Below are positions 3,175 to 36,256 of a stretch of DNA of 36,786 bases, piece by piece; the first letter of the stretch is position 1; every line of letters starts with the position of its first letter. The position numbers were made by a program, and so were the translations under genes. This DNA comes from Gemmatimonadaceae bacterium. GTDB lineage: Bacteria > Gemmatimonadota > Gemmatimonadetes > Gemmatimonadales > Gemmatimonadaceae. The stretch covers positions 1 to 36,786 of the forward strand of contig JANYIN010000142.1 of the NCBI GenBank assembly GCA_025362035.1, written 5' to 3'. Under the pieces are notes generated by a model, which worked only from the letters and a program-made list of their open reading frames with translations, was not told the origin of the DNA and made no database searches.

Positions 3175-4833
3175 CTACTGCACGATCTTCCGCACCGTGG
3201 GGTACGTGATGCCGAGCTGCTGGAGATAAGTGTCGAACTTCTTCGAGTCGTAGTAGAACTTCCGCATCTCCGGCCGGTATCGGGCCATGATGGCCTCGTT
3301 CAACCAGATCGGCGGCTGATCAGTAGCGGCGAAGAACGGGCGATACTTCACGGTCTTCGTCTGCACGTTGTTGAAGTAGTCCCAGGCGTCGGCCACGATC
3401 TGCGGCGTGAGCAGGATGTCGAGCATCGTCATGGCCTGCACCTTGGCTCCCGCCACGACACCCTTGTGCGCAATGGGCGTGGCCATCGAGATCGCGTTGG
3501 CCCAGTTGTGGCCCGGCAGCCCCGGGATGTTCGATGGATAGTTCAGCGTGATCGTCGGCACGTTCCACGCGACGTCACCGATGTCGTCGGAGCCGCCGCC
3601 GGTGCGCTGATTCTCGGGCTGCGGACCGTTCACGCGGCCCGGGCGCGTGGAGAGCCCGCTGTCCGGTACGCCCAGCTCGCGCTGGATGCCCTTGGCGAGG
3701 GTCTGGTCCTTGTCGTCCCACGTTGGCATGCCCACGCGCTTGATGTTCTCACCCATGGCTTCCGCGATGGGACGCGAGAAGTGCCCGCTCCAGCCCGAGC
3801 CGATCATCATGACGGTGTCGATCTTCGTGCCGGTCATCAGGGTGGCGCCCTCGGCCATCTTCTTCGCGTCTTCGTACATCTTCAGCGTCGATTCGTAGTC
3901 GAGGTTGCGGAAGAAGAACCAGATGGCGGCAGTGCTGGGCACCACGTTCGGTTGGTCGCCGCCGTCGGTGATCACATAGTGGGACCGCTGGGCCAGCACC
4001 ATGTGCTCGCGATGGAACTCCCATCCGTTGGCCATGAGCATCACCGCGTCCAGCGCGCTCTTGCCGCGCCACGGCGCGCCGGCCGCATGCGCGCTCTCGC
4101 CCTTGAACTTGAAGATGGCGGAGATGAGCGCGTTGCTGCTGGACTGTCCCCACGAGACCTGCAGCGACTGCCCCACGTGCGTGAACAGCGTGACGTCCAC
4201 GTCCTTGAACACGCCCGCGCGCACGAGAAACGCCTTGCCAGCCATCTGTTCTTCGGCAACGCCGGGCCAGAGCACCAGCGTGCCGGGGATGTGGTCCCGC
4301 TCCATGATCTTCTTCACGACGATGGCCGCCGCGATGTTGAGCGGCATGCCGGAGTTGTGCCCCTCGCCGTGACCCGGCGCGCCCGCGAGAATGGGGTCGT
4401 GATAGCCCACGCCCGGTTTCTGGCCCGCCTGCGGGATGTCGTCGATGTCGCTGCCCAGTGAGATGACGGGCTTGCCCGAGCCCCACCGCGCGACGAACGC
4501 GGTGGGCATGCCGGCCACGCCGCGCTCGACCCTGAAACCATTCTCCTCGAGAAGGCCGGACAGATACTTCGACGTCTCCACCTCCTGCATGCCGAGCTCG
4601 CCGTACGAGAACACCTGGTCCACCATGACCTGGATCATCTTCGCCCTGGCGTCGATCTCCGCGGCGGCTTCGGCCTTGAGCGCGTCCAGCTGCGCGGTGG
4701 TGGCGTACTTGTACTTCACGGAGTCGGTATTCGCGGCGCCGCCCCCGCGCTGCGCCATGACCGCGTTGGGTGCGAGGAGCGCGATGCACAGCGCTGTGGA
4801 TCGTGTGACGTGCCCGAGCTGAAAACGTACCAT
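3175..4833 (-). CDS. Exported M20-family amidohydrolase/peptidase (AbgB-like)
   Basis: The product is a 552-aa metallohydrolase of the M20 amidohydrolase branch that includes p-aminobenzoyl-glutamate hydrolase AbgB. These enzymes cleave an amide bond next to an amino acid. An N-terminal signal peptide ends near VMAQRGG, so the enzyme is likely periplasmic. Visible family features are SDIDDIP, GHGEGHNSG (in place of the usual GCGHN), the GVAEEQMAGK segment with the catalytic Glu pair, the small dimerisation domain starting at KFKGESAHAAGAPWRGKSALDAV (split here: KFKGESAHAAG, APWRGKSALDAV), and GHNW near the C-terminus. I chose the ATG at 4833 because it begins the signal peptide and has CGGAG about 8 nt upstream; the frame runs open to 4902 without a better start. 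It is the last gene of the long minus-strand run, 127 bp after the glycosidase-like gene. The substrate is unknown. Confidence 0.87.
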   Translation of the reverse strand: MVRFQLGHVTRSTALCIALLAPNAVMAQRGGGAANTDSVKYKYATTAQLDALKAEAAAEIDARAKMIQVMVDQVFSYGELGMQEVETSKYLSGLLEENGFRVERGVAGMPTAFVARWGSGKPVISLGSDIDDIPQAGQKPGVGYHDPILAGAPGHGEGHNSGMPLNIAAAIVVKKIMERDHIPGTLVLWPGVAEEQMAGKAFLVRAGVFKDVDVTLFTHVGQSLQVSWGQSSSNALISAIFKFKGESAHAAGAPWRGKSALDAVMLMANGWEFHREHMVLAQRSHYVITDGGDQPNVVPSTAAIWFFFRNLDYESTLKMYEDAKKMAEGATLMTGTKIDTVMMIGSGWSGHFSRPIAEAMGENIKRVGMPTWDDKDQTLAKGIQRELGVPDSGLSTRPGRVNGPQPENQRTGGGSDDIGDVAWNVPTITLNYPSNIPGLPGHNWANAISMATPIAHKGVVAGAKVQAMTMLDILLTPQIVADAWDYFNNVQTKTVKYRPFFAATDQPPIWLNEAIMARYRPEMRKFYYDSKKFDTYLQQLGITYPTVRKIVQ

Positions 4834-4960
4834 CGAGAGGCTCCGGTGGTGGTCGGCGTGTGTCGAGGTGAGCGCGACGGGGAACCGCGCGCGAGGGAGC
4901 ATATCCTTGGTGCTACGGCTTCGCGAGCGGGGTCGCTGACGGCGCGATGATGCGGCGGCG

Positions 4961-6784
4961 CTAGACGATGCCCGCCCGCTCCCGTGCCTTCCTGATCACC
5001 GCCGCCATCGTGTCGCGGTAGTCTGCGAAGGTGTCGTCCGCGATGTTGAGCGTGGGGATGGCGTTGGGGTTGAGATTGAGCGTCTCCGGGTCGAAGCGGC
5101 CGAAGCCTGCCTCGTGCACGCCGGTGCTTCCGCGGCCCGGCGCCGGCAGGCTGAGATGCTGGAAGAACCGTGCGTGGCGCTGGATGTGCTCGCGCGCATA
5201 GCGCCCACCGCCGCCCGAGTGATACAGGGGGATGAACTCGAGCATCGCGTCGTAGTGCATCTCGCCGCAACAGAGCACGGTGGGGTGCTTCGCGCGGATG
5301 TCGGCCACCATCCGCTTCATCCCTTCGTGCATGTCGGCGCGCGAATCGTTGATGTGACCGCCGGCAATGTCGAGGAAATACGCGTCCACGCCGTATGTCG
5401 CGATCATCTCGTCGATGCGGCCGGTGAGATGCCGCCGCCACGACGCCACGCCGAGGTTCATGTAGGCGAGCCAGCCCTCCTGATGCCGGTCGTTGTCCCA
5501 ATCGACCCAGTTGAGGTCCACTTCGTCGCCGTCGACCTTGTGCGTGACGGCGTCCGCGATGCGCGCGAAGCCGGGCTGTCGCTTGTTGGCGGCGTTCATG
5601 CCGAACATCGGCATGATCCTGAAGCCCATCTGCTGTCCTTCCTTCACCAGCGTCCGGAAGCCGACGTCACCGCCCATGCGGTCGTTCACGCGATAGTTCG
5701 GATAATCCCAGTAGTAACGGCCATCCCACGACGAGAGGAACGCGAGCACGCGCTGACCCGGAACCTGCGTGTTCACCCAGCGAAGAATGTTTAGCATCTT
5801 CGCATAGTCGTTGAACACGTAGCCGGTGTAGTGCTGACCATGCAGGGTGAGCACCAGCGCCGTGTCGCGCAGCCACGGCGGAACGTCAGGCCGCGCGGCG
5901 AAGTCGGGCAGGCGATAGGACGTCCGTAGGTGTTCGTAGTGTGGCGTGGTGGCCGCGTCGGCGGTGGTCGCACGGGAGATGCACCATGCGGGCACGTGCA
6001 TCTCCTTCTGGTCCAGCCACCCCTCCCCTTCGTGCACGAGCTCGACGCGATAGCCCTTCTCTCCCGGCTGCAGGTAGATGCGCTTCGTCCGCACCCTGGT
6101 GTCGCGTGACGAGAGCGCCACGAACGAGTCCTCGGCGCTTTTCACCACGACGAGTGGCGTGGTGAGGCCGCCCGCGCTGTTACCTCCGAACAGGTCGCCG
6201 CCGCTGAACGGATAGCCCAGCAGCACTTCGTTGTCGCGAGGCTCGTAGAATTCGCCGCCGGCCACGGAGAGCGCGCCACGCGGCACGTCTCGCACCACGG
6301 TCGTCACGCTCTTGATCGCCCTGTCCATCCGCACCACGACGTCCCATTCGATCCCGTCAGCGGTGGGGCGAAGCCTCGCGTGCAGATTGCCAGGCGCCTT
6401 CTGCTGCCCGCCGGCCCACGTGAATCCCGTGCAGACGATGTCCAGTCCGTCGGAGCGCTCGGCTGCCAGCATCAACGCAGGGTCCATCGCATACGCGTTC
6501 TCGCGCGAGAACACCAGAAAGGAGAAGCGGTGTCCCCGATACGCCACGCCCGGTTCCGGAAAGCTGAAGCTGAACTTGTCGTACGCATGTCCTTTCGGCG
6601 GTACGAATACGTCGCTCGTGGACGTGAGCGGCAGAATGTCGGACGTGCCGCTCGATGGCGCGTCCGGCACCGCGCTCGTCGCGCGCGCCACGCGCGCCAG
6701 TGCCGGGTTGCCGTCGAGCGCTGATCCGGCGGCGACGACGCCCACCATCTTTACCCACTCGCGACGAGAGACATCGTCAGGCAT
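4961..6784 (-). CDS. Tat-exported glycosidase-like protein with C-terminal TIM-barrel features
   Basis: This is a 607-aa protein whose exact family I do not recognise. The N-terminus has a twin-arginine signal (SRREWVKMVG, residues 6-15, followed by VVAAGSAL), indicating folded export. Residues about 45-290 look like a beta-sandwich region. Residues about 305-607 read like a glycoside-hydrolase barrel: strands LVLTLHGQHY, RVLAFLSSWDGRYYWDYPNY, GFRIMPMFGMN, VDLNWVDWDN, VDAYFLDIAGG (Asp472) and TVLCCGEMHYD (Glu508). The Asp and Glu at the ends of predicted strands are the obvious acid candidates. The fold and carbohydrate activity are inferred from this pattern only. It lies 39 bp after the deaminase gene of the hydroxyproline cluster, which suggests co-transcription and a possible role in stripping sugars from hydroxyproline-linked glycans. 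Confidence 0.7.
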   Translation of the reverse strand: MPDDVSRREWVKMVGVVAAGSALDGNPALARVARATSAVPDAPSSGTSDILPLTSTSDVFVPPKGHAYDKFSFSFPEPGVAYRGHRFSFLVFSRENAYAMDPALMLAAERSDGLDIVCTGFTWAGGQQKAPGNLHARLRPTADGIEWDVVVRMDRAIKSVTTVVRDVPRGALSVAGGEFYEPRDNEVLLGYPFSGGDLFGGNSAGGLTTPLVVVKSAEDSFVALSSRDTRVRTKRIYLQPGEKGYRVELVHEGEGWLDQKEMHVPAWCISRATTADAATTPHYEHLRTSYRLPDFAARPDVPPWLRDTALVLTLHGQHYTGYVFNDYAKMLNILRWVNTQVPGQRVLAFLSSWDGRYYWDYPNYRVNDRMGGDVGFRTLVKEGQQMGFRIMPMFGMNAANKRQPGFARIADAVTHKVDGDEVDLNWVDWDNDRHQEGWLAYMNLGVASWRRHLTGRIDEMIATYGVDAYFLDIAGGHINDSRADMHEGMKRMVADIRAKHPTVLCCGEMHYDAMLEFIPLYHSGGGGRYAREHIQRHARFFQHLSLPAPGRGSTGVHEAGFGRFDPETLNLNPNAIPTLNIADDTFADYRDTMAAVIRKARERAGIV

Positions 6785-6823
6785 GTTGATAGCGCCTTCG
6801 CGCGGAGGAGTCGGCGCGCGGCA

Positions 6824-7735
6824 TCAGACCGCCGCCGCCACCGGTCGCGCGGCGATCGATCTCGTGATGAGCGCGCGCATCGCGGCCAGTTCCTCGCCGT
6901 GCAGTTCGAGCCGCGGCGGACGCACGGTGGCCGTTCCACATCCCACTTCCTGTTGCACGAGCTTGATCAGCTGCACGAACTTGGGGACGGTGTCGAGCCG
7001 CAGCAGCGGCAGGAACCAGTCGTACAGGACCATGGCCTCCTCGAAGCGCCCGGCCTTGCCCAGCTCGAACAGCTGAACGGACTCCACCGGGAATGCGTTC
7101 ACGAGCCCCGCGATCCAGCCGACCGCACCCATCGGAATGCTTTCGAGGATCATGTCATCCATGCCCGCGAAGATCGCGAGACGGCCGCCGAGCCGCTCCC
7201 GCACAGCCGTCACGCGGCGCACGTCGCCGCTGGATTCCTTCACCGCGTGAAGGTTGGCGTGCGCCGCCGCCAGTTCCGCAAGCTGGTCCGGCGTCACGTC
7301 CGTTCCATACGCGATGGGATTGTTGTAGAGCATCACCGACAGCGGCGTCGCCTCGATCACCGCGCTGTAGTGTGCGCGGGTTTCCCGCCAATCGCCCTTG
7401 TAGACGTACGCCGGCAGCGCCATCACGGCGTCACAGCCGACGTCGGCAGCGCGGCGCGCCAGTGTCACGCACTCCGTCGTGCTCAGCCCCGCGATGCCGG
7501 CGATGACGGGCACCCGCCCGGGCAGCGCCTTTCGAATGGTGTGGAGGATCTCGACCTTCTCGTCCGTCGTCAGGGTCGCGGACTCGCCCAGCGACCCGAG
7601 CGCCACGATCCCAACGCAGCCGCTGTCGATCAGCCAACGAACCTGCGTCGCGAGCGCGTCGTGATCCACGGTGAGGTCGGCGTGAAACGGCGTGGTGATC
7701 GCGGGGAAGACTCCGGCCCAGTCACTCTGTTGCAT
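6824..7735 (-). CDS. lhpC: DapA-family lyase, probable 1-pyrroline-4-hydroxy-2-carboxylate deaminase
   Basis: This is a 303-aa cytoplasmic aldolase of the dihydrodipicolinate synthase/N-acetylneuraminate lyase superfamily, full length for the family. It shows the Schiff-base lysine in HAVKESSGD, the conserved tyrosine region LPAYVYKGD, YNNP, and the GSLGESATLT substrate loop (GTTGE in DapA). On sequence alone it could be any DapA-like lyase. The context decides: it directly follows a D-hydroxyproline dehydrogenase and hydroxyproline epimerase, where the known pathway needs a DapA-family enzyme. That enzyme deaminates and dehydrates 1-pyrroline-4-hydroxy-2-carboxylate to alpha-ketoglutarate semialdehyde. 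It starts 6 bp after the preceding stop, so it is in the same operon. The gene name is assigned from pathway position, not from a residue-level diagnostic. Confidence 0.82.
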   Translation of the reverse strand: MQQSDWAGVFPAITTPFHADLTVDHDALATQVRWLIDSGCVGIVALGSLGESATLTTDEKVEILHTIRKALPGRVPVIAGIAGLSTTECVTLARRAADVGCDAVMALPAYVYKGDWRETRAHYSAVIEATPLSVMLYNNPIAYGTDVTPDQLAELAAAHANLHAVKESSGDVRRVTAVRERLGGRLAIFAGMDDMILESIPMGAVGWIAGLVNAFPVESVQLFELGKAGRFEEAMVLYDWFLPLLRLDTVPKFVQLIKLVQQEVGCGTATVRPPRLELHGEELAAMRALITRSIAARPVAAAV

Positions 7736-7741
7736 AAACGC

Positions 7742-9058
7742 TCATGCTCCCTGGTGAAGCGAGTCGGCGGATTCGTCCGCCGTGCCCGCAAGAATGGTTG
7801 ACAGCAGTGCCGGCTCACTGGGCAGGCGCACCGTGTCGGCGTGCCACCCGAAGAGAAACTCCAGCGACGCACCACACACGCGGCCCTGGCACGGACCCAT
7901 GCCGGCGCGAGTGTACAGCTTGGCCTGGCGAGCGTTCCAGCCGCTTTCGATGGAACGCAGCCGGACGTCTTCGCACCGGCAGACGATGGTATCGGGAGTG
8001 ACGATGTCGCGCAGTTCCGCGCGCGGCGCAAATGCGTGCTCCATGCGAGCCGCCATTCGTCGCAATGGTCGTAGCCGATGGCGCAGCAGCTCGACGTCCG
8101 TTGCGGAGCCCGCCGCGGAGAGCCCCGCCAGCTCGCCCTCCACGATCGCCAGCTCCGCGCCCCCAATGCCCGTCGCTTCACCCGCGCAGTAGACACCGGG
8201 GCGCGACGTCTGTTGGTGATTGTCCACCACCACCGCGCCGTTGGCGACCTCGCATTGCAGCAGTCGCGGCAATTCGACGTTGGGAATCAACCCGTGGGCC
8301 GCGCAGAGCACGTCGCAAACGATCTCCCGCGTGGTGCGGCCGTCGGTGACGGTCACCGCTTCCAGGCGCTCGGTTCCTCGCGCTTCGGACACCCACAAGC
8401 CGGTACGGTACGGCGTGCCGAAGAAGCCGGCACGGTACCGCGCGCCCTGAAGCAGCGATTCGGGACGCGTCAGGAGCCCGACAGCGAACCCCACGACCGC
8501 GCGCGCCGGCGCCTGCTCTGCGACAAGCACCACGCGCGCCCCTGCCCCCGCGAGCGTCGCGGCCACTGGGAGCAGCAAGGGACCAGTGCCGGCAATGACC
8601 ACACGCTTGCCGGCGAACGACAGTCCGGCCTTGAGCAGCGCCTGCGCGCCGCCCACGCCGTGTACCCCGGGCAGAGTCCATCCAGGGAACGGGATGAAGC
8701 GTTCGCGCGATCCCGTGGCGAGCACCAGCGCGCGCCCATGCACTCGGCAAGCCAGCGACGCGCGCTCCGCCGTGACGAGGAAGCCGTCGCCGCCACTGGT
8801 GGCGCGCGCGTCCACCACTGACGCGCCGTTCAGGACCATGGCGCCGGAGCGCGCGAAGCGCGCCATCCACTTGCGCGCTTGCGTGGGAACGCCGTCGCCA
8901 GCGCGATGACGCCAGATGTTGCCACCCATTTCCGCGCCCTCGTCCAGCACGACGGTGCGTCGTCCCGATTCCGCCGCGCGCGTTGCGGCGGCGATGCCGC
9001 CGGGTCCAGCGCCGACCACCACGACGTCAGCGACGATGTCCGCCACACCGGCGCTCAC
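7742..9058 (-). CDS. FAD/NAD(P)-type oxidoreductase with C-terminal BFD-like [2Fe-2S] domain (D-hydroxyproline dehydrogenase subunit)
   Basis: The product is a 438-aa flavoprotein of the HcnB/opine-dehydrogenase/LhpE type. It has an N-terminal FAD motif GAGPGG (residues 16-21) with the acidic end at VVLDEG, a second dinucleotide motif GTGPLL (157-162), ATGSRERFIPFPGW, and a C-terminal cysteine set: CRC (360, 362) and CQGRVC (390, 395). The set resembles the bacterioferritin-associated-ferredoxin domain and is suited to a 2Fe-2S cluster. In hetero-oligomeric D-hydroxyproline dehydrogenases this subunit passes electrons with the small ferredoxin-like and DadA-like partners encoded directly upstream. 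The start is a GTG at 9058 that overlaps the upstream stop as GTGA; the longer frame to 9115 would overlap the neighbour by 61 bp and adds no family sequence. Confidence 0.87.
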   Translation of the reverse strand: MSAGVADIVADVVVVGAGPGGIAAATRAAESGRRTVVLDEGAEMGGNIWRHRAGDGVPTQARKWMARFARSGAMVLNGASVVDARATSGGDGFLVTAERASLACRVHGRALVLATGSRERFIPFPGWTLPGVHGVGGAQALLKAGLSFAGKRVVIAGTGPLLLPVAATLAGAGARVVLVAEQAPARAVVGFAVGLLTRPESLLQGARYRAGFFGTPYRTGLWVSEARGTERLEAVTVTDGRTTREIVCDVLCAAHGLIPNVELPRLLQCEVANGAVVVDNHQQTSRPGVYCAGEATGIGGAELAIVEGELAGLSAAGSATDVELLRHRLRPLRRMAARMEHAFAPRAELRDIVTPDTIVCRCEDVRLRSIESGWNARQAKLYTRAGMGPCQGRVCGASLEFLFGWHADTVRLPSEPALLSTILAGTADESADSLHQGA

Positions 9059-9321
9059 GATGCGTCCTGCTGCGCGGTGGTCACGCGAAGACCGTTCTTT
9101 GCCGTCACGAGGCACGCGCGCTGATACGGCACATCATCGATCGTCACTCGGCACTCGAAGCACACGCCCATGCCACAGAGCGGCCCGCGCGGCTCGCCCG
9201 TGACGGAGCGGCGAACCGTCGTGATGCCAGCGCCAAGAAGCGCGGCGGCCACGCTAGTCCCCGGGGCGACTCGCAGTTCGCGGCCGTCGGCGACGATGGT
9301 GACGATCCAGGTGTCCGTCAC
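9055..9321 (-). CDS. Small [2Fe-2S] ferredoxin-like subunit of D-hydroxyproline dehydrogenase
   Basis: This 88-aa protein matches the HcnA/sarcosine-oxidase N-terminal ferredoxin type (Fer2_4). Four cysteines, C49, C54, C57 and C70, in the pattern PLCGMGVCFEC...RAC fit a plant-type 2Fe-2S cluster. It is the electron-relay subunit between the two flavoproteins encoded on either side. It starts with GTG at 9321 in a GTGA overlap with the DadA-like gene, and its own TGA overlaps the GTG of the next gene. This indicates translational coupling of all three subunits in a fixed ratio. Such small subunits occur in several amino-acid dehydrogenases; the hydroxyproline assignment rests on the neighbouring epimerase. 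Confidence 0.87.
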   Translation of the reverse strand: MTDTWIVTIVADGRELRVAPGTSVAAALLGAGITTVRRSVTGEPRGPLCGMGVCFECRVTIDDVPYQRACLVTAKNGLRVTTAQQDAS

Positions 9322-10451
9322 CGAGCCGCCGCAGGCGCCGCGAGCACGCGCATCGGCGAGTACGCGGCGGCGTCAAGCACCGGCGTGCGGCCCAGCACGA
9401 GATCGGCGAGAAGGCTGGCGGTTCCAAGCGAAGTCGTGATGCCGAGCCCTTCGTGCCCTGTCGCGACATACAGTCCCTGGATGGGTAGCCACCTGCCGAT
9501 CAGCGGGAGCTTGTCGGGCGTCGCGGCTCGAAAGCCGGTCCACGTCCGTACGATACTCATCCGGGCGAGCATCGGCATGAACTCCACCGCCCGCTCCAGC
9601 ATCTGCCCGAGCACGCCGCGATTGGTGGCCGCGTCCCATCCGACCAGTTCGCGTGACGACCCGATGAGCACCTGTCCGGTCGCTCGCGGCTGCACGTTGA
9701 ACGCCACCGATTCGGTGGACAGCACGTGCGCGCTGGCGAGATAGCCCAGTTCCACGAGCTGGTGGCGACAGAAGCCGGGATGCCGGTCCGTGATCGCCAG
9801 GTGCCCCTTGCGTGGAACGATCGGTAGCTCGGGCGTGAGTCTGCCGCTTTCGGCGCCCGCGGCATTGACGATGACGTTCGCGTGCAGCGTTTCACCTCCA
9901 ATGCGCACGCCGTGATCCACGATGTCGTCCACACGACACTGCTCGCGCAGCACGGCCCCGTGCGTCTGCGCGTCGGCCAGCAGCGCCAGCGCGGCGCGCG
10001 GCGGATAGATCACGCTATCGGCGGGCACGAGGAGCCCGCCTGCGAGGCCGCTCCGCAGGTTGGGCTCCAGTGCGTAGAGGCGGCGGGCGTCGAGCACTTC
10101 GCTCGCGATCGCGTGCTCCTCGTACACGCGCCGTTTCTCCGCCACCGCCTCCAGCTGTTCCCCGTCCTCCGCCACCCAGATCGTGCCGCACGCGTCGTAC
10201 TCGACGGACGCTGGTAACGAGTGGCGCAGCGACTGCCACAGTGACAACGAGTGCGCAGTGAGCGCGAGCTGTTCGGCCGAGTCGTCCATCGCCACGAGGT
10301 GCCCCATCCCCGCCGCGGTGGTGCCGCCGGCGGCGAACCCGGCGTCGAGCACGAGCACCCGGAGGCCCTCGCGCGCGAGCGCGCGCGCGCACGCCGCGCC
10401 CACTATGCCCGCGCCGATCACGATCGCATCACTGCGCGTCGCGATGGTCAC
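9318..10451 (-). CDS. DadA-type FAD-dependent D-amino-acid dehydrogenase, probable catalytic subunit of D-hydroxyproline dehydrogenase
   Basis: The product is a 377-aa FAD oxidoreductase of the D-amino-acid oxidase/glycine-oxidase (DAO) superfamily. It has the FAD motif GAGIVG (residues 13-18) with the VLVLDAG acidic strand end, the GTTAAGMGHL segment near the flavin, VNAAGAES, RKGHL, and the C-terminal ATGHEGLGIT block typical of DAO proteins. It would oxidise cis-4-hydroxy-D-proline to 1-pyrroline-4-hydroxy-2-carboxylate. The GTG start at 10451 overlaps the epimerase stop (GTGA), which tightly links it to the reaction that makes its substrate. D-proline or another D-amino acid is possible, but the cluster matches the known three-subunit hydroxyproline arrangement. 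Confidence 0.87.
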   Translation of the reverse strand: MTIATRSDAIVIGAGIVGAACARALAREGLRVLVLDAGFAAGGTTAAGMGHLVAMDDSAEQLALTAHSLSLWQSLRHSLPASVEYDACGTIWVAEDGEQLEAVAEKRRVYEEHAIASEVLDARRLYALEPNLRSGLAGGLLVPADSVIYPPRAALALLADAQTHGAVLREQCRVDDIVDHGVRIGGETLHANVIVNAAGAESGRLTPELPIVPRKGHLAITDRHPGFCRHQLVELGYLASAHVLSTESVAFNVQPRATGQVLIGSSRELVGWDAATNRGVLGQMLERAVEFMPMLARMSIVRTWTGFRAATPDKLPLIGRWLPIQGLYVATGHEGLGITTSLGTASLLADLVLGRTPVLDAAAYSPMRVLAAPAAAR

Positions 10452-11428
10452 ACGCGTGCGCGGTCGCCGTCCGGCAAGGGAATGCCGAAACGGAATGGAT
10501 CACGCTCGTCGAACAGCAGCGTCGCCTCCCCGGTAACGAACGCCGAGCCGCGAATGTGCGGAATGAGCTCACCGTGCAGCCCCGGCGTGAGCCACCCCGT
10601 GAACAGCCCCCCGACGATGCCCTCCTGACGCCACGGCTCGCCGAACGCGAGTTGATCGCGCGCGTGCAGCGTGGCCATCTTTGCGGATGTGCCCGTTCCA
10701 CATGGCGACCGGTCGTATTCGCCGCCGGAGCAGAGCACATAGTTGCGGCAGTCGGCGTCCGCACGCGACGGGGCGGCGGAGATCTCGATGTGGTCGATGG
10801 CACTACCCTGGGCGCCGGTGATGCCGTGCGCGTCAATCGCCTGCTGAATCGCGCTCGTGAAGCGGCCCAGTTCCGCCACGCGGCTCATCTCCACCGGTAC
10901 CTGAGCGTCATGGGTGATGAAGAACCAGTTACCTCCGTACGCCACGTCGCCGACCACAGGTTCGTAGCCCGCGACGTCCACGCGGACGTCCTGCGCGTGG
11001 ACGAACGACGCCACGTTTTCGATCGTGACGGTGCCATCGTCGGACAGCTCCGTGCGCACCGTGCCCGCGGGGGTATCGATGAGGGCTGAGCCGGGCGAAA
11101 GCCGACCCAGATGCTGCAGCGTGCGGATCACGCCGATCAATCCATGGCCGCACATGCCGAGGTAGGTACCGTTGTTGAAGAACACCGCGCCCGCGAGGGA
11201 CCCCTCGTTCACCGGCGGCGTGAGCAGCGCGCCGACGATGGCATCGTGTCCGCGCGGTTCACACACCACGGCGCGTCGCAGGTGATCGGAACCGTCGCGA
11301 AGGTCCGCCACTCGTTCGGCCATGGTGGCACCGCGTGGCTGCGGCCACCCGTCGATGACGACGCGAGTCGGCTCTCCTTCCGTGTGAGAGTCGACGACGT
11401 GAACGCTGCGCGGACCGTGAGAGGGCAT
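10448..11428 (-). CDS. lhpA: 4-hydroxyproline 2-epimerase (proline racemase family)
   Basis: This is a 326-aa cofactor-free epimerase that interconverts trans-4-hydroxy-L-proline and cis-4-hydroxy-D-proline. Both catalytic cysteines of the two-base mechanism are present: Cys93 in GMCGHG and Cys243 in SPCGTGTSA. This excludes the dehydratase branch, which replaces a cysteine. The N-terminal VVDSHTEGEPTRVV block is typical. The frame is open to 11704, but family similarity begins at the ATG at 11428 (MPSHGPRSVHVVDSH). That start has no strong ribosome site, so its exact position is slightly uncertain. A true proline racemase cannot be fully excluded, but the downstream D-amino-acid dehydrogenase and DapA-type deaminase argue for hydroxyproline catabolism. 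Confidence 0.9.
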   Translation of the reverse strand: MPSHGPRSVHVVDSHTEGEPTRVVIDGWPQPRGATMAERVADLRDGSDHLRRAVVCEPRGHDAIVGALLTPPVNEGSLAGAVFFNNGTYLGMCGHGLIGVIRTLQHLGRLSPGSALIDTPAGTVRTELSDDGTVTIENVASFVHAQDVRVDVAGYEPVVGDVAYGGNWFFITHDAQVPVEMSRVAELGRFTSAIQQAIDAHGITGAQGSAIDHIEISAAPSRADADCRNYVLCSGGEYDRSPCGTGTSAKMATLHARDQLAFGEPWRQEGIVGGLFTGWLTPGLHGELIPHIRGSAFVTGEATLLFDERDPFRFGIPLPDGDRARV

Positions 11429-11486
11429 GTGCGATTCGGGTGAGCGGATTGGCACTAGAGTATGCAGCCCGGTACCGACGGGCAAC

Positions 11487-13340
11487 TCATCGAGCCCGGC
11501 ATCCGGGCATCCGGAACGCTCCGATCCGCGTGGAGTAATTCGTCGCGGCGGCGCGCAAGTAGTCGCCGACGTACCAGATGGTGCAGTCGTCGCTCGGGTC
11601 GACCGCCGTCTGGGTGTAGTCCTCCCAGCGCAGCGTATTGATCTGCGCTGCCGCGCCCTCGACGAGCACCGCTTCGCGGAGCGATAACACGCCCGGCGGG
11701 TCATTCACGAGCCGGCCCGCAAACCGCTGCCCGGCAAAGTTGGGTGATCCCCCGAACGAGTAGCCGATGCCGATGTTCCCGGCGCCATCAATCGCGGGCG
11801 AACCCATCCACCGAAAGAAGCTGTCGGGAGCGAACGTCCCTTGCTGGGCGAGCGTCACGCGGCGATTTCGATCCACCACGAACTCGTACCAGCGGACGCC
11901 GCCGCCGCCCACGGCCGTGTTCACGGAGTGCACCGCGACAATCGATTCCCTGTCGCCGCGGCGACGATAGACCACGCGCGCCATGAGCTTGTCGCCCTGC
12001 GCGTCGAGCCGGCGCTCGGTACCGGGCTGCGGCACGCAACTCGTCAGCTGGCCGTCGCACAGATAGTGGTACGGCGCCACCGCGATCTTCGTCGGGCCCT
12101 GCAGCGTGGTCTTCGACGAGTCGTTCCAGTCAACGTGGAACGTCCAGGCATAGATGCCGTCATCGCCGAGCACCTTTTGCAGCTGGGTGCCTCCGGCCGC
12201 GAGAAGGATGTTCGGCGCGCCGGCCGGCGGGAGTTGGGTGCCGTCGAGATCGGCGTTGTTGAGGAAGTTCACGCCGTCGATGACCACGCACTGCTCGGTG
12301 GCCTCCTCACCACGCAACATCCTCGCTCGATCCACCACGCACGCATGCTTCTGGATCACCTCGTCCCCGGTACTGCTCGGCACATAGTAGCCGTCTGGCC
12401 AGACAGCCGGTCGCGGATAGTCGGGGAACAGCGGTCGAACGAATTCGTAGCGGTAGTACGCGCCAAGCGGATCCGGCCCGACGCTTACGGCGTAGCACAT
12501 GCCGTACGAGCCCTTTTCCTGCGGGGACTGTCCAACGCGCGCACCGCTGACGGGTGCGGCCGGAGCCGGGGGCGGTTCAAACAGTTTCGTCGCCGCGCCG
12601 GGCTGCCCGCGCTGTCCGATCATGCTGCGGCGCGCCGGCTCCCCGGCGGCCGGGGCAGTCGGTTCCAAATCTCGCGCGGCCTGGCGACGAAAGATCGGCA
12701 TCACGATCAGCCATCGACCGGCAAGCTGATCGTAGCGCACCACTGCATCGCCGTTCGGACGCTCCGCGCAAGGTCCGCCGAAGTCCTTGAACACGTCGTT
12801 CGTGCCGACGGGTCCGAGCAGCACGGTGCCTGTGCTGTCGAAACGCTTCCCCTTCTTTGTGAAGATCGCCATGCGGGTGTTCACGATCTGCACGATGTGA
12901 TTGGGGCCCACGGCCAGCGTGTTGTCCGACGGATTGCGCATGTTCGCACTGCCCTGCGGGCCGGCGAATCCTTCACCAAGCCCGTCAAAGCTCGCGACGA
13001 GTGTGGCTGCGGGCCTCGCGCCCTGCGACGTCTGCTCGATGTCGGCGCCGCGTACACGCGTCGCGGTGGAAGGCTGGCGGTCGCGCGGGCCTGGCAGGCC
13101 AGTGGAGGGTGCTTCCGCGTCGGGCGCCAGTGCATTCGACGGCGCGCGCGATTCTCCCCCTGCCCCGCCCCGTATCAGGTATTCGTTCGACGGTCGCGTG
13201 TCACGCAACGGGGCGGATATGTCGTGCGCTACGGGGTGGTGGACCACCACGTCACGGTTTGGCGCACCGCACGCGAGCGCGACGCCGACGACGGCGATGG
13301 TCGTGACGGCGAGTGACACAGTGTGGGCGACGTGTTTCAT
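11487..13340 (-). CDS. Large exported lipoprotein of unknown function
   Basis: This 617-aa protein has a lipoprotein signal: hydrophobic residues 7-23 and lipobox ALAC with Cys24. I do not recognise the family. A disordered Ser/Pro/Arg-rich stretch follows to about residue 110, then a globular part with GPNHIVQIVNTRMAIF, DFGGPC, WPDGYY and WEDYTQT, interrupted near residues 225-275 by a Pro/Ala-rich linker (EPPPAPAAPVSG). The repeated short strand patterns hint at a beta-propeller-like fold, which is only an impression. Several cysteines outside the signal could pair as disulfides in the periplasm. ATG at 13340 has GGAAG about 9 nt upstream and lies 6 bp after the M1 peptidase stop, so the two are co-transcribed. 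A GCCCGG/CCGGGC stem at 11494-11508 covers its last codons. Confidence 0.75.
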   Translation of the reverse strand: MKHVAHTVSLAVTTIAVVGVALACGAPNRDVVVHHPVAHDISAPLRDTRPSNEYLIRGGAGGESRAPSNALAPDAEAPSTGLPGPRDRQPSTATRVRGADIEQTSQGARPAATLVASFDGLGEGFAGPQGSANMRNPSDNTLAVGPNHIVQIVNTRMAIFTKKGKRFDSTGTVLLGPVGTNDVFKDFGGPCAERPNGDAVVRYDQLAGRWLIVMPIFRRQAARDLEPTAPAAGEPARRSMIGQRGQPGAATKLFEPPPAPAAPVSGARVGQSPQEKGSYGMCYAVSVGPDPLGAYYRYEFVRPLFPDYPRPAVWPDGYYVPSSTGDEVIQKHACVVDRARMLRGEEATEQCVVIDGVNFLNNADLDGTQLPPAGAPNILLAAGGTQLQKVLGDDGIYAWTFHVDWNDSSKTTLQGPTKIAVAPYHYLCDGQLTSCVPQPGTERRLDAQGDKLMARVVYRRRGDRESIVAVHSVNTAVGGGGVRWYEFVVDRNRRVTLAQQGTFAPDSFFRWMGSPAIDGAGNIGIGYSFGGSPNFAGQRFAGRLVNDPPGVLSLREAVLVEGAAAQINTLRWEDYTQTAVDPSDDCTIWYVGDYLRAAATNYSTRIGAFRMPGCRAR

Positions 13341-13346
13341 TGTCGA

Positions 13347-15029
13347 TTACTTCCCCGCCCGCGCACTCACGTCCCGCGCGAGCACGTAATAGTTGTCGTC
13401 CAATCGCACATTGGCTGCGTCATGGACCGCCGTCGGCGCCGTCTGCCAGATGGTTGTGGGGCGCAGCGCGGAGAAGGCACCTCCCGTGAGCGCCACACGA
13501 ATGGGCATCGCGAAGCCCGGTACGACATCCGCCCACCGGTACGACAGCGTCTCCCCCTCGAGCTTGTACTCGAACACGGGTACGCGGGTGGTCGAGAGGT
13601 ATTGCGCGAAGACACTCGCGAGATCGACGCCCGCCTGCTGGCTGATGAACTGTTGCAGCTGCGCGCCCGTGATGACCTGATGGCGGAACGTCGCGTTCAT
13701 TCCGCGCAGTATCCCGCGCCACTTCTCGTCGTCGTTCACGATCTGGCGAATGGTGTGCAGCATGTTGCCGCCCTTGTAGTACACATCGCCCGATCCTCCG
13801 CGGTGCACCCCGTACTGGCCCAGGATCGGTGTGTCGTTGCGGATCAGCTTGCGAGTGCCGATCACGTACGACGCGCCCGCCTGTTTCCCGAACAGGCACT
13901 CGGTGTAGAGGTTCTCAGCGTAGTTCGCGAAGCTCTCGTGGATCCAGGTGTCTGCGATGTCGTCCGCGGTGAGGCTGTTGCCGAACCACTCGTGGGCGCT
14001 CTCGTGCACGATGATGAAGTCCCAGCGGAGGCCCCATCCGGAAGCGGAGAGGTCGCGTCCGAGGTATCCGTTCGCGTAGTGGTTCCCGTAGGCGACGGCG
14101 CTCTGATGCTCCATGCCGAGATGCGGCGTCTCCACGAGCTTGTAGCCGTCCTCGTACCACGGGTACGGACCGAACCAGTGCTCGAAGCACTTGAGCATCG
14201 ATGGGACCTGCTCGAATTGCTTGCGAGCGGCCGCCACGTTGTAGGACAGTGGATAATAGTCCAGCGTCAGCTGCCCGCCTTCTCCCTCGTAGGCGTCCGC
14301 CAAATGCGCGTACCGCGCCGCGTTGATGGCCACGTCGTAGTTATTGATCGGGTTGGCGACGAACCATTCATAGGTGGTGGTGCCGTTGCGGTGATGCGTG
14401 GTACTCATCAGGCGACCATTCGAGACGTCGATGAGCGGATCGGGCACCGTGATGGCCACGCGCTGGCTGTCGGGTTCGTCGGCCTGGGTGTCCTTGTTCG
14501 GCCACCAACCGCTGGCGCCGAACCCCTGAACTGCTGACGCGATCCATGAGCGTCCCAGGCTGTCCCTGCCCCACACGATGCCCCCGTCCCACGGCGCGCG
14601 AAGGGCCGCACGCGGCTTGCCGTGATAGTACGCCACGATCGTCTGTACGTCGCCGACGCGTTGCGGCGCGACGGTCGTGACAAAGAACGCGTCGCCGTCA
14701 CGTCGATGCGTCAGCCGCGTCCCGTTCTGCTTCACGCTGTCCATCTCCAATGGCATCCGCAAATCGAGCTGCATGTCCTGCGCTGGCTTCACCACCTTGT
14801 ACGTGATGGCGTTGAATCCGCGCACGCTGCTGTCGCCCGGGCTCACAGCCACGTGCAGGTCGTAGAACGTCACGTCCCACCAGGTTCGCGCTGGCGACGT
14901 CAGGGAGCCGCGAAGTGAGTCCGCGTGCGTCGTCGTCTCGCTCCGCTGCGCGAGAGCGCTGGCGGAGAGCGCGCACATGGCGAACGCGAGTCCCGCATGG
15001 TGCCGAGCGGTGCTGGTGATGCGTGGCAT
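13347..15029 (-). CDS. Exported M1-family metallo-aminopeptidase
   Basis: This is a 560-aa zinc aminopeptidase that removes N-terminal residues from peptides. The gluzincin motif HESAHEWFG gives zinc ligands His342 and His346 with catalytic Glu343, and the third ligand Glu365 lies in WIHESFANYAE. The exopeptidase motif usually written GxMEN reads GMEHQSAVAYG here, a variant known in related secreted M1 enzymes. A signal peptide (residues 1-28, ending ALAQR) predicts periplasmic or outer location. I chose ATG 15029 because it begins the signal peptide; the frame continues to a TTG at 15077 with no support. The protein is shorter than PepN and lacks its long C-terminal helical domain. Its stop is 6 bp from the downstream lipoprotein gene. 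Confidence 0.9.
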   Translation of the reverse strand: MPRITSTARHHAGLAFAMCALSASALAQRSETTTHADSLRGSLTSPARTWWDVTFYDLHVAVSPGDSSVRGFNAITYKVVKPAQDMQLDLRMPLEMDSVKQNGTRLTHRRDGDAFFVTTVAPQRVGDVQTIVAYYHGKPRAALRAPWDGGIVWGRDSLGRSWIASAVQGFGASGWWPNKDTQADEPDSQRVAITVPDPLIDVSNGRLMSTTHHRNGTTTYEWFVANPINNYDVAINAARYAHLADAYEGEGGQLTLDYYPLSYNVAAARKQFEQVPSMLKCFEHWFGPYPWYEDGYKLVETPHLGMEHQSAVAYGNHYANGYLGRDLSASGWGLRWDFIIVHESAHEWFGNSLTADDIADTWIHESFANYAENLYTECLFGKQAGASYVIGTRKLIRNDTPILGQYGVHRGGSGDVYYKGGNMLHTIRQIVNDDEKWRGILRGMNATFRHQVITGAQLQQFISQQAGVDLASVFAQYLSTTRVPVFEYKLEGETLSYRWADVVPGFAMPIRVALTGGAFSALRPTTIWQTAPTAVHDAANVRLDDNYYVLARDVSARAGK

Positions 15030-15104
15030 GAAGCTGATCTGATGGGTGAAGGTGTCGTTATTGCAAGGGTGTCTCAATCAACCGAATGGCAACCGCCTGA
15101 TCAT

Positions 15105-15770
15105 TCATTGCACCGACGCGCGGATCAACCGGTCCAGCCGTGGAAACTCTCGGTCGAGCCACCCGTTCCCTTCGCCGAGCAGCCGTTGCTGTTTGCCCCG
15201 ACGCATGCCGCCTCCGGAATCCTCCCCGTATTCGGAGTTCAGGAGGTCCACCACGTCCATTCCCCGCACGACCCGCCCGAAGATCGCGAAACCCTCCGCG
15301 TCGTTCTTCGTGTTGTCCGCCACATTGATGTAGATCTGCGTGCGACGATCGTTCGGTCCGCGCATGGCATACGCAACCGTTCCCCGCACGTTCGAGAGCC
15401 CGGGCCGGTCATCCGGCAGCGCGCGATCGTTCCAGATCGCCGTGACGGCGGGATCACCCGCAACGCCGAACTGCGCGATGTAGCCCGGCAGCACGCGAAA
15501 GAAGCGCGAATCGTCGAAGAACCCCGAGCGGACGAGATTGTAAAAGCGGTCCGCACCGATCGGGGCGCGCGCGCGCACGCTCTCGATGACGAATGTACCC
15601 TTGGTCGTTTCGAACCGCACGCGTGCCGTGTCCGGTGCGCGCTCGTTCCACCGCGAGTCTTCGGGGTGGGACAGCATCCCTCGTCGCTCGTCGGGCGGAA
15701 GCTGGCCTGGGCGTCCTGATCCGTGACACGCCGCGATGGAGAGGAACGAGGCGAGTAGCCAGCGGCGCAT
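15105..15770 (-). CDS. Cyclophilin-type peptidyl-prolyl isomerase lipoprotein
   Basis: This is a 221-aa exported isomerase. The signal is short, with lipobox IAAC (Cys15), followed by a linker to about residue 48 and a single cyclophilin domain. The domain shows KGTFVIES, DRFYNLVRSGFFDDSRFFRVLPG, QFGVAGDP, RGTVAYAMRG and FAIFGRVVRGMDVVD, which are the conserved catalytic and core segments. It catalyses cis/trans isomerisation of X-Pro bonds in the cell envelope. It is the first gene of the minus-strand run, 75 bp before the M1 peptidase, and diverges from the post-proline dipeptidyl peptidase. General folding help is the default role; aid to degradation of proline-rich substrates is an inference from neighbours. 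Confidence 0.88.
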   Translation of the reverse strand: MRRWLLASFLSIAACHGSGRPGQLPPDERRGMLSHPEDSRWNERAPDTARVRFETTKGTFVIESVRARAPIGADRFYNLVRSGFFDDSRFFRVLPGYIAQFGVAGDPAVTAIWNDRALPDDRPGLSNVRGTVAYAMRGPNDRRTQIYINVADNTKNDAEGFAIFGRVVRGMDVVDLLNSEYGEDSGGGMRRGKQQRLLGEGNGWLDREFPRLDRLIRASVQ

Positions 15771-15781
15771 TCAATCGTGGT

Positions 15782-15810
15782 TGGCGGAGGGGTGAGCCGA
15801 TGGATATAGT
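15782..15810 (+). promoter_or_regulatory. Candidate promoter for the dipeptidyl peptidase gene
   Basis: In the 107-bp divergent gap a TATAGT box (15805-15810) lies about 18 bp after TTGGCG (15781-15786), a fair sigma-70-like pair, 68 bp before the ATG at 15878. It was assigned by eye only. No comparable pair was found on the minus strand for the isomerase gene. Confidence 0.35.
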
Positions 15811-15877
15811 ATGCGGCGGCACGCCTGTCCACTCACGGCGCGAGCGCTTTTCTGCTCCTTTTCTTCTTCCAATCGAC

Positions 15878-18151
15878 ATGATCGGACACACCTCCCGTCG
15901 CGCGCGACAGCGGTCGCTCACGCTCCTGTGCGGCGCCCTCGCACCCCTCACGGCCGGTTTCGCCCAGGCACCGTTTGCCGGTGCGCCCGACTCGGTGAAT
16001 CTGAAGCGCATCTTTGCGTCGAGTGAGTTTGCGGGCCAGAGTATCGGCGGCGTCCGGTGGCTGGACGGCGACAGCTACACGGCGCTCGAGCGTGCTGCGG
16101 ACGGCTCCGGCGTGAACATCGCCCGCTACAACGCGGCGAGCGGCACGCGGGACGTTCTCGTCCCGGCGGCGCAACTGGCGCTCATTGGGGACAGTCAGCT
16201 GGCGGAGGACTACCAGCTCTCTCCCGCGCGCGACTTCCTCCTGGTCTTCACCAAGTCGGAGAAGGTGTGGCGCGACAACACACGTGGCGACTACTGGATC
16301 ATCGACCTCAAGCGATCGTCGGCGCACAAGGTGGGCGGACCGACGGCGGCCCCATCGAGCCTCATGTTCGCCAAATTCTCGCCCGCCGGGGATCGCGTGG
16401 GGTACGTGTGCGCGGGCGACCTGTATGTGGAGTCCGTGTCGGGCGGCGCGCCGGTGCGGCTTACGCGGGACGCCTCACGCACTATCGTGAACGGCACCTC
16501 GGATTGGGTCTACGAGGAAGAGTTCGGCTTCCGCGATACCTGGCGCTGGTCACCGGATGGGAAAACCATCGCGTATCTGCAGTTCGACATGGCCGGCGTG
16601 CGCGACTACACGCTGATCAATGACACGGACTCGCTCTACTCGTTCTCCACGCGCATCCAGTACCCGAAGGTGGGCCAGACCAATTCCGCCGTGCGCGTTG
16701 GCCTGGTGTCCGCCACCGGCGGCAAGACCACATGGGTCAAACTCATGGGCGACGCGCGCCAGATGTACGTTCCGAGCATCGAGTGGGCCGGCGCAACGCA
16801 CGTGATGATTCAGCACGTGAATCGCCTGCAGAATCGGGACGAAGTGCTGCTGGCCGACCGGCGCACCGGCGCAACGCAGTCGATCATGGTGGAGGCGGAC
16901 AGTGCGTGGGTGAACGTGAACTCCGACGTCCGCTGGATCGATGGTGGCGGACGCTTCCTGTGGGAGAGCGAGCGCGACGGCTGGCGGCATCTGTACAGCG
17001 TTTCGCGTGACGGCAAGGACGTGCGGCTACTGACTCCCGGTGACTATGACGTGGTGTCGCTCGCCGGCGTGGACGAGAAGGCCGGCTTGCTCTACGTCAT
17101 CGCTTCGCCCACGGACGCCACGCGGCGCTATCTGTACCGCGTTTCGCTGGCGTCGCCGGCCGCGCCGGTGCTGGTGTCTCCCAACGTGCCGGGCACGCAC
17201 GGCTACAACGTGTCGCCAGGCGGGCACTGGGCGCTGCACGTCGTGTCGAGCTTCGATGCGCCCCCGGTGGCGGATATCGTGGCGCTTCCCTCGCATCAAA
17301 CGGCGCGTACGCTCGTCACGAACGACAAGCTTCGCGCCGCGCTCGCGCCGATTGTGCGCAGTCGTCCCGTTGAGTTCTTCAAGGTCACCGTCGCCAGCGG
17401 AACCACGCTCGACGGGTGGATGATCCGACCGACGTCGTTCGATTCAACGAAGAAGTATCCGGTGCTCGTGACCGTCTACGGCGAACCCGCGGGTCAGACA
17501 GTGGTGGATCGCTGGGGCGGAGGTGGCATGCTCTGGCATCGTATGCTGGCTGACAAGGGCTATCTGGTGGTGAGCTTCGACAACCACGGCACGCCCGCCC
17601 CGCGCGGGCGAGCATGGCGCAAGAGCATCTACGGCGCCATCGGACCGCTATCCAGCCAGGAGCAAGCCCAAGCCGTCCAGGCAATCACAAAATCGCGCGC
17701 GTACGTGGACGGATCACGAGTGGCGATTTGGGGCTGGAGCGGTGGTGGCTCGAGCACGCTGAACGCCATGTTCCGACATCCCGATGTGTATCAGGTGGGC
17801 ATGGCGGTGGCGCCGGTGCCCGACCAGCGGCTATACGACTCCATCTACGAGGAGCGGTACGTTGGGCTCATCGCCGAGCATCCGGAGCATTACGCGGTCA
17901 GCTCGCCCATCAATTTTGCGGAGGGGCTAACGGGCAAGTTGCTGGTGGTACACGGATCCGGCGACGACAACGTCCACTATCAGGGCACGGAGCGGCTCGT
18001 GAATCGGCTGGTGGCCCTCGGGAAACCCTTCGACCTCATGGTGTATCCCAACAGGACGCATTGCATCTGCGAACTATCAGGGACCACGCTGCACGTGTAT
18101 TCTCTGCTCACGCGGTACCTGAGCGCCAACCTGCCAGCCGGCCCGCGGTAG
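15878..18151 (+). CDS. Exported dipeptidyl peptidase IV (S9B family)
   Basis: The product is a 757-aa serine peptidase that releases X-Pro or X-Ala dipeptides from N-termini. A signal peptide (residues 1-30, ending GFAQAPF) is followed by the beta-propeller with the substrate N-terminus-binding Glu motif DWVYEEE (209-215), which is diagnostic of DPP IV. The alpha/beta-hydrolase domain follows, with nucleophile Ser621 in GWSGGG, Asp696 in HGSGDDNVH and His728 in YPNRTHCI. The usual GWSYGG reads GWSGGG. I chose ATG 15878 because it begins the signal peptide; the frame extends upstream to 15593 across the divergent isomerase gene and is not credible there. It lies opposite the hydroxyproline and peptidase run and would supply proline-containing dipeptides. 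Confidence 0.93.
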   Translation: MIGHTSRRARQRSLTLLCGALAPLTAGFAQAPFAGAPDSVNLKRIFASSEFAGQSIGGVRWLDGDSYTALERAADGSGVNIARYNAASGTRDVLVPAAQLALIGDSQLAEDYQLSPARDFLLVFTKSEKVWRDNTRGDYWIIDLKRSSAHKVGGPTAAPSSLMFAKFSPAGDRVGYVCAGDLYVESVSGGAPVRLTRDASRTIVNGTSDWVYEEEFGFRDTWRWSPDGKTIAYLQFDMAGVRDYTLINDTDSLYSFSTRIQYPKVGQTNSAVRVGLVSATGGKTTWVKLMGDARQMYVPSIEWAGATHVMIQHVNRLQNRDEVLLADRRTGATQSIMVEADSAWVNVNSDVRWIDGGGRFLWESERDGWRHLYSVSRDGKDVRLLTPGDYDVVSLAGVDEKAGLLYVIASPTDATRRYLYRVSLASPAAPVLVSPNVPGTHGYNVSPGGHWALHVVSSFDAPPVADIVALPSHQTARTLVTNDKLRAALAPIVRSRPVEFFKVTVASGTTLDGWMIRPTSFDSTKKYPVLVTVYGEPAGQTVVDRWGGGGMLWHRMLADKGYLVVSFDNHGTPAPRGRAWRKSIYGAIGPLSSQEQAQAVQAITKSRAYVDGSRVAIWGWSGGGSSTLNAMFRHPDVYQVGMAVAPVPDQRLYDSIYEERYVGLIAEHPEHYAVSSPINFAEGLTGKLLVVHGSGDDNVHYQGTERLVNRLVALGKPFDLMVYPNRTHCICELSGTTLHVYSLLTRYLSANLPAGPR

Positions 18152-22699: not shown

Positions 22700-22722
22700 C
22701 TGTCCCTTCTCCCGGTGTGCGG

Positions 22723-29743: not shown

Positions 29744-29752
29744 GCCGTCAGC

Positions 29753-35887: not shown

Positions 35888-36256
35888 CGGGATGTCTCGA
35901 AGAGGTTTGCGCGTTCGGAACGGGCCGTATTGCCCACGAGCAAACGTTTGCGACGCTCGCCCGTTTCGCCAGCCCCTCCGTGCGCGGCGCAAACGAGCAG
36001 CGGCGCACCGCGGACCGTGGAGGTGAGGGTCGTGGCGCGCGGCAAGGTCACGCCCGCACCACCGCACGTCAACCATTGCGCGCGGATCGTCCGTTGCGCA
36101 TTTCCCTGTTCGAAACGCACGTCTCCCGTCTCCGCTCGTTACGCCTCCACCGCATTCACCCACGGCAATGCGCGTTCATGCAGGACTCGAACTGGCGCGG
36201 AGCGCCGCGTTGCTGACGGCTGCCCACGCGCGGCCATTCGACCGGAGAGCGACACC
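35888..36256. other. Divergent intergenic region
   Basis: This 369-bp gap separates the exported DUF885 gene (minus) from the 2-hydroxyacid dehydrogenase gene (plus) and should hold both promoters. It is as GC-rich as its surroundings. I saw no convincing promoter pair, strong palindrome or gene. Part of it may belong to the DUF885 gene if that start lies further upstream. Confidence 0.5.

Follow-up and report, generated by a model that had tools for sequence, protein, structure and literature searches.

We analyzed a 36,786-nucleotide stretch of DNA (the window; contig JANYIN010000142.1, positions 1 to 36,786, our contig C87) from a Gemmatimonadaceae bacterium whose genome comprises 4.64 Mb on 212 contigs (GCA_025362035.1), and we focused on a hydroxyproline catabolic operon that is embedded there in a run of genes for putatively exported enzymes. 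Our working hypothesis, which we hold with moderate confidence on the strength of gene context, is that this locus serves the utilization of hydroxyproline-rich glycoproteins or glycopeptides, most likely of the plant extensin or arabinogalactan protein type, and that it would feed on the backbone and probably also on the arabinose side chains of these molecules. The recurrence of a hydroxyproline operon together with a prolyl peptidase, a porin and an arabinosidase is best explained by the use of whole hydroxyproline-rich glycoproteins. In the window, the peptide half of this hypothesis is better supported than the sugar half.

Five minus-strand genes are predicted to encode the full set of enzymes for conversion of trans-4-hydroxy-L-proline to alpha-ketoglutarate semialdehyde (KGSA), i.e. 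a hydroxyproline 2-epimerase of the Cys/Cys type (10448..11428; PF05544), the beta-like (9318..10451; PF01266, DAO), gamma-like (9055..9321; a 2Fe-2S subunit, PF13510, Fer2_4) and alpha-like (7742..9058, with a longer start at 9115; Pyr_redox_2/Fer2_BFD, soxA-like) subunits of a D-hydroxyproline dehydrogenase, and a pyrroline-4-hydroxy-2-carboxylate deaminase of the DapA family (6824..7735; PF00701). The epimerase, whose start we corrected from 11704 in the preliminary description to 11428, contains both catalytic Cys motifs and is 69-75% identical to the epimerases of six named Gemmatimonadetes/Gemmatimonadaceae metagenome-assembled genome (MAG) records. Its best NCBIfam model is NF052296 (4-hydroxyproline epimerase) at 361.6 bits, which is under the 450-bit cut-off, while the proline racemase model scored 226.5.

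These five genes are part of a ten-gene minus-strand run (3175-15770) that, from the M20 gene upward, encodes an M20-family amidohydrolase, a predicted glycosidase (GHlike), the deaminase, the alpha, gamma and beta dehydrogenase subunits, the epimerase, a putative lipoprotein (unk7), an M1-type metallopeptidase and a prolyl isomerase (PPI). In this direction, the gaps between genes are 58, 39, 6, -4, -4, -4, 58, 6 and 75 bp with the M1 start at 15029, and the last gap is 27 bp if M1 starts at 15077; no gap exceeds 75 bp. The genes may be regulated together. The M20 amidohydrolase (3175..4902; TIGR01891 above cut-off), the M1 peptidase (13347..15077, alternative start 15029; PF01433, HExxH...E motif) and the cyclophilin-type PPI (15105..15770; PF00160), a putative lipoprotein, are predicted to be exported, as is the S9-family dipeptidyl peptidase IV (DPP IV; 15878..18151, plus strand; PF00930 and PF00326). 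Judged by eye, the leaders of M20 and M1 are presumably of the Sec type, and those of unk7 and PPI lipobox-like; the sequences DWVYEEEF, GWSGGG and GSGDDNV in DPP IV are what we take to be the Glu-Glu motif and the motifs of the Ser-Asp-His triad. Pfam and NCBIfam domain matches recovered all genes named in the preliminary description on the strands it gave, and they confirmed both the closely spaced run that joins the epimerase, dehydrogenase and deaminase genes with those for exported enzymes and the divergent orientation of DPP IV, the start of which is most likely 15878 rather than 15593. GHlike is the one glycosidase-like protein noted there; in the run, however, two long proteins (4961-6784 and 11487-13340) remain unmatched in Pfam even at a cut-off of E≤5.

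To place this arrangement in context, we compared the window with 38 other epimerase loci from Gemmatimonadota. Of 60 relatives, 20 had an epimerase match at E≤0.001; across the phylum, 35 of 395 genomes had one at the stricter E≤1e-80. The window's own genome is included in both counts. Genes of relatives were predicted with a simple gene caller and labeled via clustering or BLAST, with one Pfam-tested member per label. A contig reached twice was counted as one locus (L023-L027, L029, L034, L001 and L078), close relatives are among the counted loci (L079/L080 and L133/L134), and eight further epimerase loci outside both this group and the Acidobacteriaceae described below were mapped and left uncounted (among them L030-L033 and L035-L037, including the Rhodanobacter locus L031); in L030, L032, L035, L036 and L037 there was no glycosidase or peptidase match. 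The loci are MAG contigs, many of them short: 13 of the 38 from Gemmatimonadota and 4 of the 40 from Acidobacteriaceae span less than 15 kb, and the absence of a gene from these carries little weight. The statistics of all chance tests ignore kinship.

In Gemmatimonadota, the usual order is a GntR regulator, a KGSA dehydrogenase-like gene, the epimerase and the dehydrogenase subunits, and the deaminase may precede or follow; in most relatives, it adjoins the epimerase. Loci L005 (genome G005) and L008 (G008) had no match to the alpha or gamma subunit and L015 (G025) contained the epimerase and deaminase only, and these three loci perhaps represent a single-subunit form of the dehydrogenase. 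DPP IV accompanies the hydroxyproline operon at 7 of the 38 loci, in differing orders: it opens the operon in L003, L006 and L007 (DPP IV-GntR-epimerase), overlapping or spaced from the following gene by no more than 19 bp, directly follows the deaminase in L079, L080 and L081, and lies two genes before the epimerase in L103, which belongs to another family. In G008, it lies 11.7 kb from the epimerase. DPP IV was found within 20 kb of the epimerase in 5 of 14 genomes with an epimerase ortholog versus 0.12 expected by chance, and in 4 of 13 genomes with the window left out (P=2.3e-6). On a tree of 15 S9 proteins, DPP IV must have switched between the linked and the unlinked state two or more times, one of these switches being forced by the starred branches; therefore, the linkage does not reflect only a single inherited event. 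Other peptidases beside the epimerase were M24 prolidases (two of the 38 loci), M19 peptidases (six, all from one genus) and S9 peptidases of another type (two).

A second recurrent partner is a SusCD pair, which in the window consists of a SusD-like_2 surface lipoprotein (21200..22726, minus strand; PF12771) and a SusC/TonB-dependent porin (22723..25893, minus strand; PF07715 and PF13715) at a distance of ~3 kb to DPP IV and of 5.4 kb to the ten-gene run. Homologs flank the operon in 5 of the 38 loci; those of L006 and L086 are 46-48% identical to the proteins of the window, and those of L079, L080 and L082 are more distant. Finally, a TauE/SafE permease gene (18183..19121, plus strand; PF01925) begins 31 bp past DPP IV, and such permeases border 7 of 39 Gemmatimonadota hydroxyproline loci besides the window (L003, L004, L038, L083, L084, L085 and L087); the other mapped loci add one, which in L019 likewise adjoins a PF05544 gene (L027 duplicates L085). 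This permease is a candidate hydroxyproline transporter.

The predicted glycosidase GHlike (4961..6784, minus strand) has a leader with what we take to be a twin-arginine (Tat-type) motif and no match in Pfam at E≤5 or in NCBIfam and no credible sequence match in the PDB. Its structure model (pLDDT 75.6, pTM 0.78) comprises a beta-sandwich plus a TIM barrel, and the best Foldseek match was a GH129-type enzyme (5opq/8rzk; E 3.9e-19, TM 0.57) followed by GH36 alpha-galactosidases. GHlike is thus predicted to be a glycosidase of the alpha-galactosidase-like (GH36/GH129/GH31) superfamily, and Asp472, which lies at the end of strand 4 and is invariant in 14 sequences, is a candidate for its catalytic nucleophile. 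We counted 14 GHlike loci in an order-level sample, window included. A gene for a PF07944-type GH127 enzyme (beta-L-arabinofuranosidase) is present alongside in 9 of the 14, and ribulokinase-type, sugar isomerase-type or AraD-type genes together with a sugar ABC transporter in 6; in total, 12 of the 14 have GH127 or L-arabinose genes, the exceptions being the window and a locus truncated where its contig stops. The ribulokinase and AraD labels have NCBIfam scores above cut-off, whereas the GH127 label was Pfam-tested on one member, and PF07944 searches matched that place in the genomes of four others. In genome G029 (L016), GHlike and GH127 lie tail to tail together with a second PF05544 gene.

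The protein unk7 (11487..13340, minus strand), a putative lipoprotein without a Pfam family, is beta-propeller-like, and because the fold matches are weak (best TM 0.34-0.35 to a sialidase) we assign no activity to it. Its homologs neighbor AraB/AraD in G024, GH127 in G211 and the end of a GHlike gene in G007. In G024, a single stretch carries an M24 prolidase, the hydroxyproline operon, a second PF05544 gene, unk7, ribulokinase and AraD. The second PF05544 genes of G024 and G029 encode a Ser...Cys dyad. We considered that they might be trans-3-hydroxyproline dehydratases and dropped this reading because a study of such proteins (PMC4113996) assigns this dyad to a 4-hydroxyproline epimerase group.

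A similar pairing was found in another phylum. Among 250 sampled genomes of the family to which the Acidobacteriaceae KBS 83 genome belongs, 85 have the epimerase, and we mapped 40 loci from these 85 genomes, picked by score and contig room and, therefore, biased to long contigs. In two of the 40 (L127 and L130), a GHlike gene (48-49% identical to that of the window) and then GH127 follow right after the operon, tail to tail. GH127 was found at 7 of the 40 loci, GH51 at 5, GH43 at 4 and DUF5695 at 6, and GH27, GH31, DUF885 and S9 genes are also present. Overall, 18 of the 40 loci have a listed glycosidase family and 17 a listed peptidase, while eight control stretches from the same family (149.6 kb) have neither; it tells against the glycosidase counts that their seeds were drawn from the counted loci themselves, 24 of the 33 matches not being seeds. 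For this reason, the curated family PF07944 provides the unbiased test, and we applied it to 80 of the 85 epimerase-positive genomes (G417, G437, G535, G549 and G629 were left out). As counts were made from 150 of 256 matches, the observed values are lower bounds: at least 9 of the 80 genomes have PF07944 no more than 10 kb from the epimerase (1.15 expected) and at least 21 no more than 20 kb from it (2.18 expected; nominal P about 1e-15). DUF5695 proteins (~880 aa) are encoded just after the operon in L121, L122, L123, L132, L138 and L143, twice together with GH27; DUF5695 is a candidate new glycosidase, for which we found nothing on point in the literature.

Under our working hypothesis, GHlike, and perhaps unk7, would strip arabinose-containing side chains that shield the backbone, the SusCD pair and perhaps the TauE permease would import peptides or hydroxyproline, and DPP IV would trim X-Pro/X-Hyp dipeptides off imported or periplasmic peptides. 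The PPI could aid prolyl peptidases that require the trans form. For the glycan half, GH127 and arabinose genes would have to be supplied by other parts of the genome, in which contig C130 carries one PF07944 (GH127) gene.

Several observations weigh against this hypothesis. Neither M20 nor PPI is beside the epimerase in any of the 38 Gemmatimonadota or 40 Acidobacteriaceae loci (M20 orthologs up to 83% identical exist unlinked to it), M1 is in 1 of 38 and, at 38% identity, in 2 of 40, and the roles suggested for these three proteins, with their unconserved linkage, are the weakest parts of the model. We therefore rejected the idea that the ten genes form one conserved module, M20 and PPI never and M1 rarely being linked to the epimerase in relatives. 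Within the window, to which this search was confined, neither a GntR regulator nor, more to the point, a KGSA dehydrogenase was matched. Homologs of DPP IV, M1 and unk7 (matched at the cut-offs used in 39, 32 and 18 of the 60 genomes, respectively) are common in genomes without the epimerase. GHlike is absent from all 38 other Gemmatimonadota loci and, with the window excluded and without G007, in which GHlike is cut by a contig end, lies beside a PF05544 gene in 1 of 7 genomes (P=0.025). Because none of the seven listed glycosidase families is present in the 38 loci, the glycan reading is counted against in the window's own phylum. The window contig has no homolog of GH127, AraB or AraD, nor does the window match the GH43 seed, and the GH127 stretch of the same genome (L099) contains no labeled gene family besides GH127. 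Lastly, a GH127 gene close to the epimerase could be the sign of a genomic island for plant polysaccharides in general.

The preliminary description, which had proposed that exported enzymes couple protein breakdown to hydroxyproline catabolism, thus survives in a modified form, i.e. through the recurrent pattern of DPP IV, SusCD and GHlike-GH127 and not through the enzyme set that it listed. Of that set, DPP IV has a recurrent place beside the epimerase in Gemmatimonadota and M20, PPI, M1 and the glycosidase-like gene do not; the linkage of the last is seen in Acidobacteriaceae and beside the Ser/Cys-type paralog in G029.

We also considered that the window contains a hydroxyproline operon of the ordinary kind and that chance shuffling in a peptidase-rich lineage brought unrelated exported enzymes into it, the spacing being a result of genome compaction. 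The lack of M20, PPI and GHlike, and nearly of M1, from the other 38 Gemmatimonadota loci and the wide distribution of homologs without the epimerase agree with this, and close spacing by itself is no proof of co-function; however, DPP IV and SusCD are repeatedly linked in differing orders and GHlike-GH127 adjoins the operon in another phylum, and we regard chance assembly as rather doubtful. The narrower view that GHlike is a chance neighbor is weakened by the pairing in two phyla. Alternatively, the locus might be a general system for proline/hydroxyproline-rich peptides, collagen and gelatin included, with no glycan part, in which SusCD, DPP IV, M1, M20, M19, the Dpp transporter and DUF885 make up a peptide-use region. 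Peptidases and an oligopeptide transporter do dominate the window, and hydroxyproline catabolism and a collagenase are under one regulator in Streptomyces (PMC6608401), the HypR targets of Streptomyces coelicolor including a secreted collagenase. Against this, GHlike and unk7 lie inside the run and are both tied elsewhere to GH127 or arabinose genes, and no M9 collagenase was among the scanned window proteins, the rest of the genome not having been searched for M9; we consider a peptide-only system unlikely. Because GHlike associates with GH127 and L-arabinose genes, we favor plant glycoproteins over collagen as the substrate. We consider it very improbable that the locus is devoted to D-amino acids or cell-wall peptides, in which case the substrates of the dehydrogenase, the DapA-family protein and the M19/M20 proteins would derive from peptidoglycan. 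The window does encode M19 and M20 families and D-amino-acid-type oxidoreductases, but the epimerase scores as a 4-hydroxyproline epimerase and, in relatives, the five-part set is accompanied by a KGSA dehydrogenase-like gene.

The window shares the epimerase, the alpha/beta dehydrogenase and the DapA-type deaminase with the trans-4-hydroxy-L-proline operons of Pseudomonas, Sinorhizobium and the Streptomyces HypR regulon (PMC4113996 and PMC6608401), and the GntR-type regulator of such operons is matched in the window's relatives; unlike them, the window has no regulator or KGSA dehydrogenase gene, and its run additionally encodes exported peptidases and a predicted glycosidase. The HypBA1/HypBA2/HypAA beta-L-arabinooligosaccharide systems of Bifidobacterium and Xanthomonas resemble our loci in linking a GH127-type enzyme and a prolyl peptidase (in Xanthomonas euvesicatoria, a broken prolyl oligopeptidase gene adjoins xehypAA), but in the portions available to us of these papers (PMC6085000, PMC10850190 and PMC7263609) only sugar release is described, GH127 beta-L-arabinofuranosidases freeing arabinose from hydroxyproline-linked extensin chains (PMC6085000 and PMC10850190), whereas our loci are anchored on the hydroxyproline operon and the window has GHlike, but no GH127, where those systems have GH127/GH121/GH43. 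The window also resembles SusCD-type utilization loci in having a SusC/SusD pair near exported hydrolases, but its anchor is amino-acid catabolism and the pair is some way from the run. In Latescibacteria, degradation of hydroxyproline-rich glycoproteins was proposed in silico, with GH127 and peptidases acting against extensin (PMC4454575); as far as its accessible part goes, this is a genome-wide inventory without a linked hydroxyproline operon. In our searches of the open-access literature, we found no described locus joining deglycosylation of hydroxyproline-rich glycoproteins to hydroxyproline catabolism.

Beyond DPP IV, the window encodes, besides the TauE permease and SusD/SusC, an M19 peptidase, an oligopeptide transporter and two DUF885 proteins; the minus-strand region 27981-36163 contains the oligopeptide ABC transporter genes, those for the two DUF885 proteins and a GFO/IDH/MocA oxidoreductase. 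DUF885 adjoins 10 of the 40 Acidobacteriaceae epimerase loci, and literature on it, judged by title, included nothing on point. Six of 39 Gemmatimonadota loci (L009, L079, L080, L081, L082 and L087) and two Acidobacteriaceae loci (L149 and L150) encode a large Sortilin/BNR-repeat protein in the vicinity of the epimerase. Just outside the run, a gene for a Big_1 Ig-like domain protein (2292-3023) is convergent with M20 and has no homolog among the mapped loci.

Plants supply soil with large amounts of hydroxyproline-rich glycoproteins. We tentatively propose, as a possibility that goes further than our working hypothesis, that soil Gemmatimonadota and Acidobacteriaceae possess a distinct kind of locus that would consume the hydroxyproline backbone and the L-arabinose side chains of extensin-type glycoproteins, and that GHlike would found a new GH family acting on arabinosylated or galactosylated hydroxyproline-rich peptides. 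The pattern singles out GHlike, unk7, DUF5695 and DUF885 as targets whose activity could be assayed with a single class of substrates, and it opens to direct test whether bacteria draw nitrogen and carbon from extensin. The similar pairings in two phyla suggest that there are gene clusters devoted to plant cell-wall glycoproteins.

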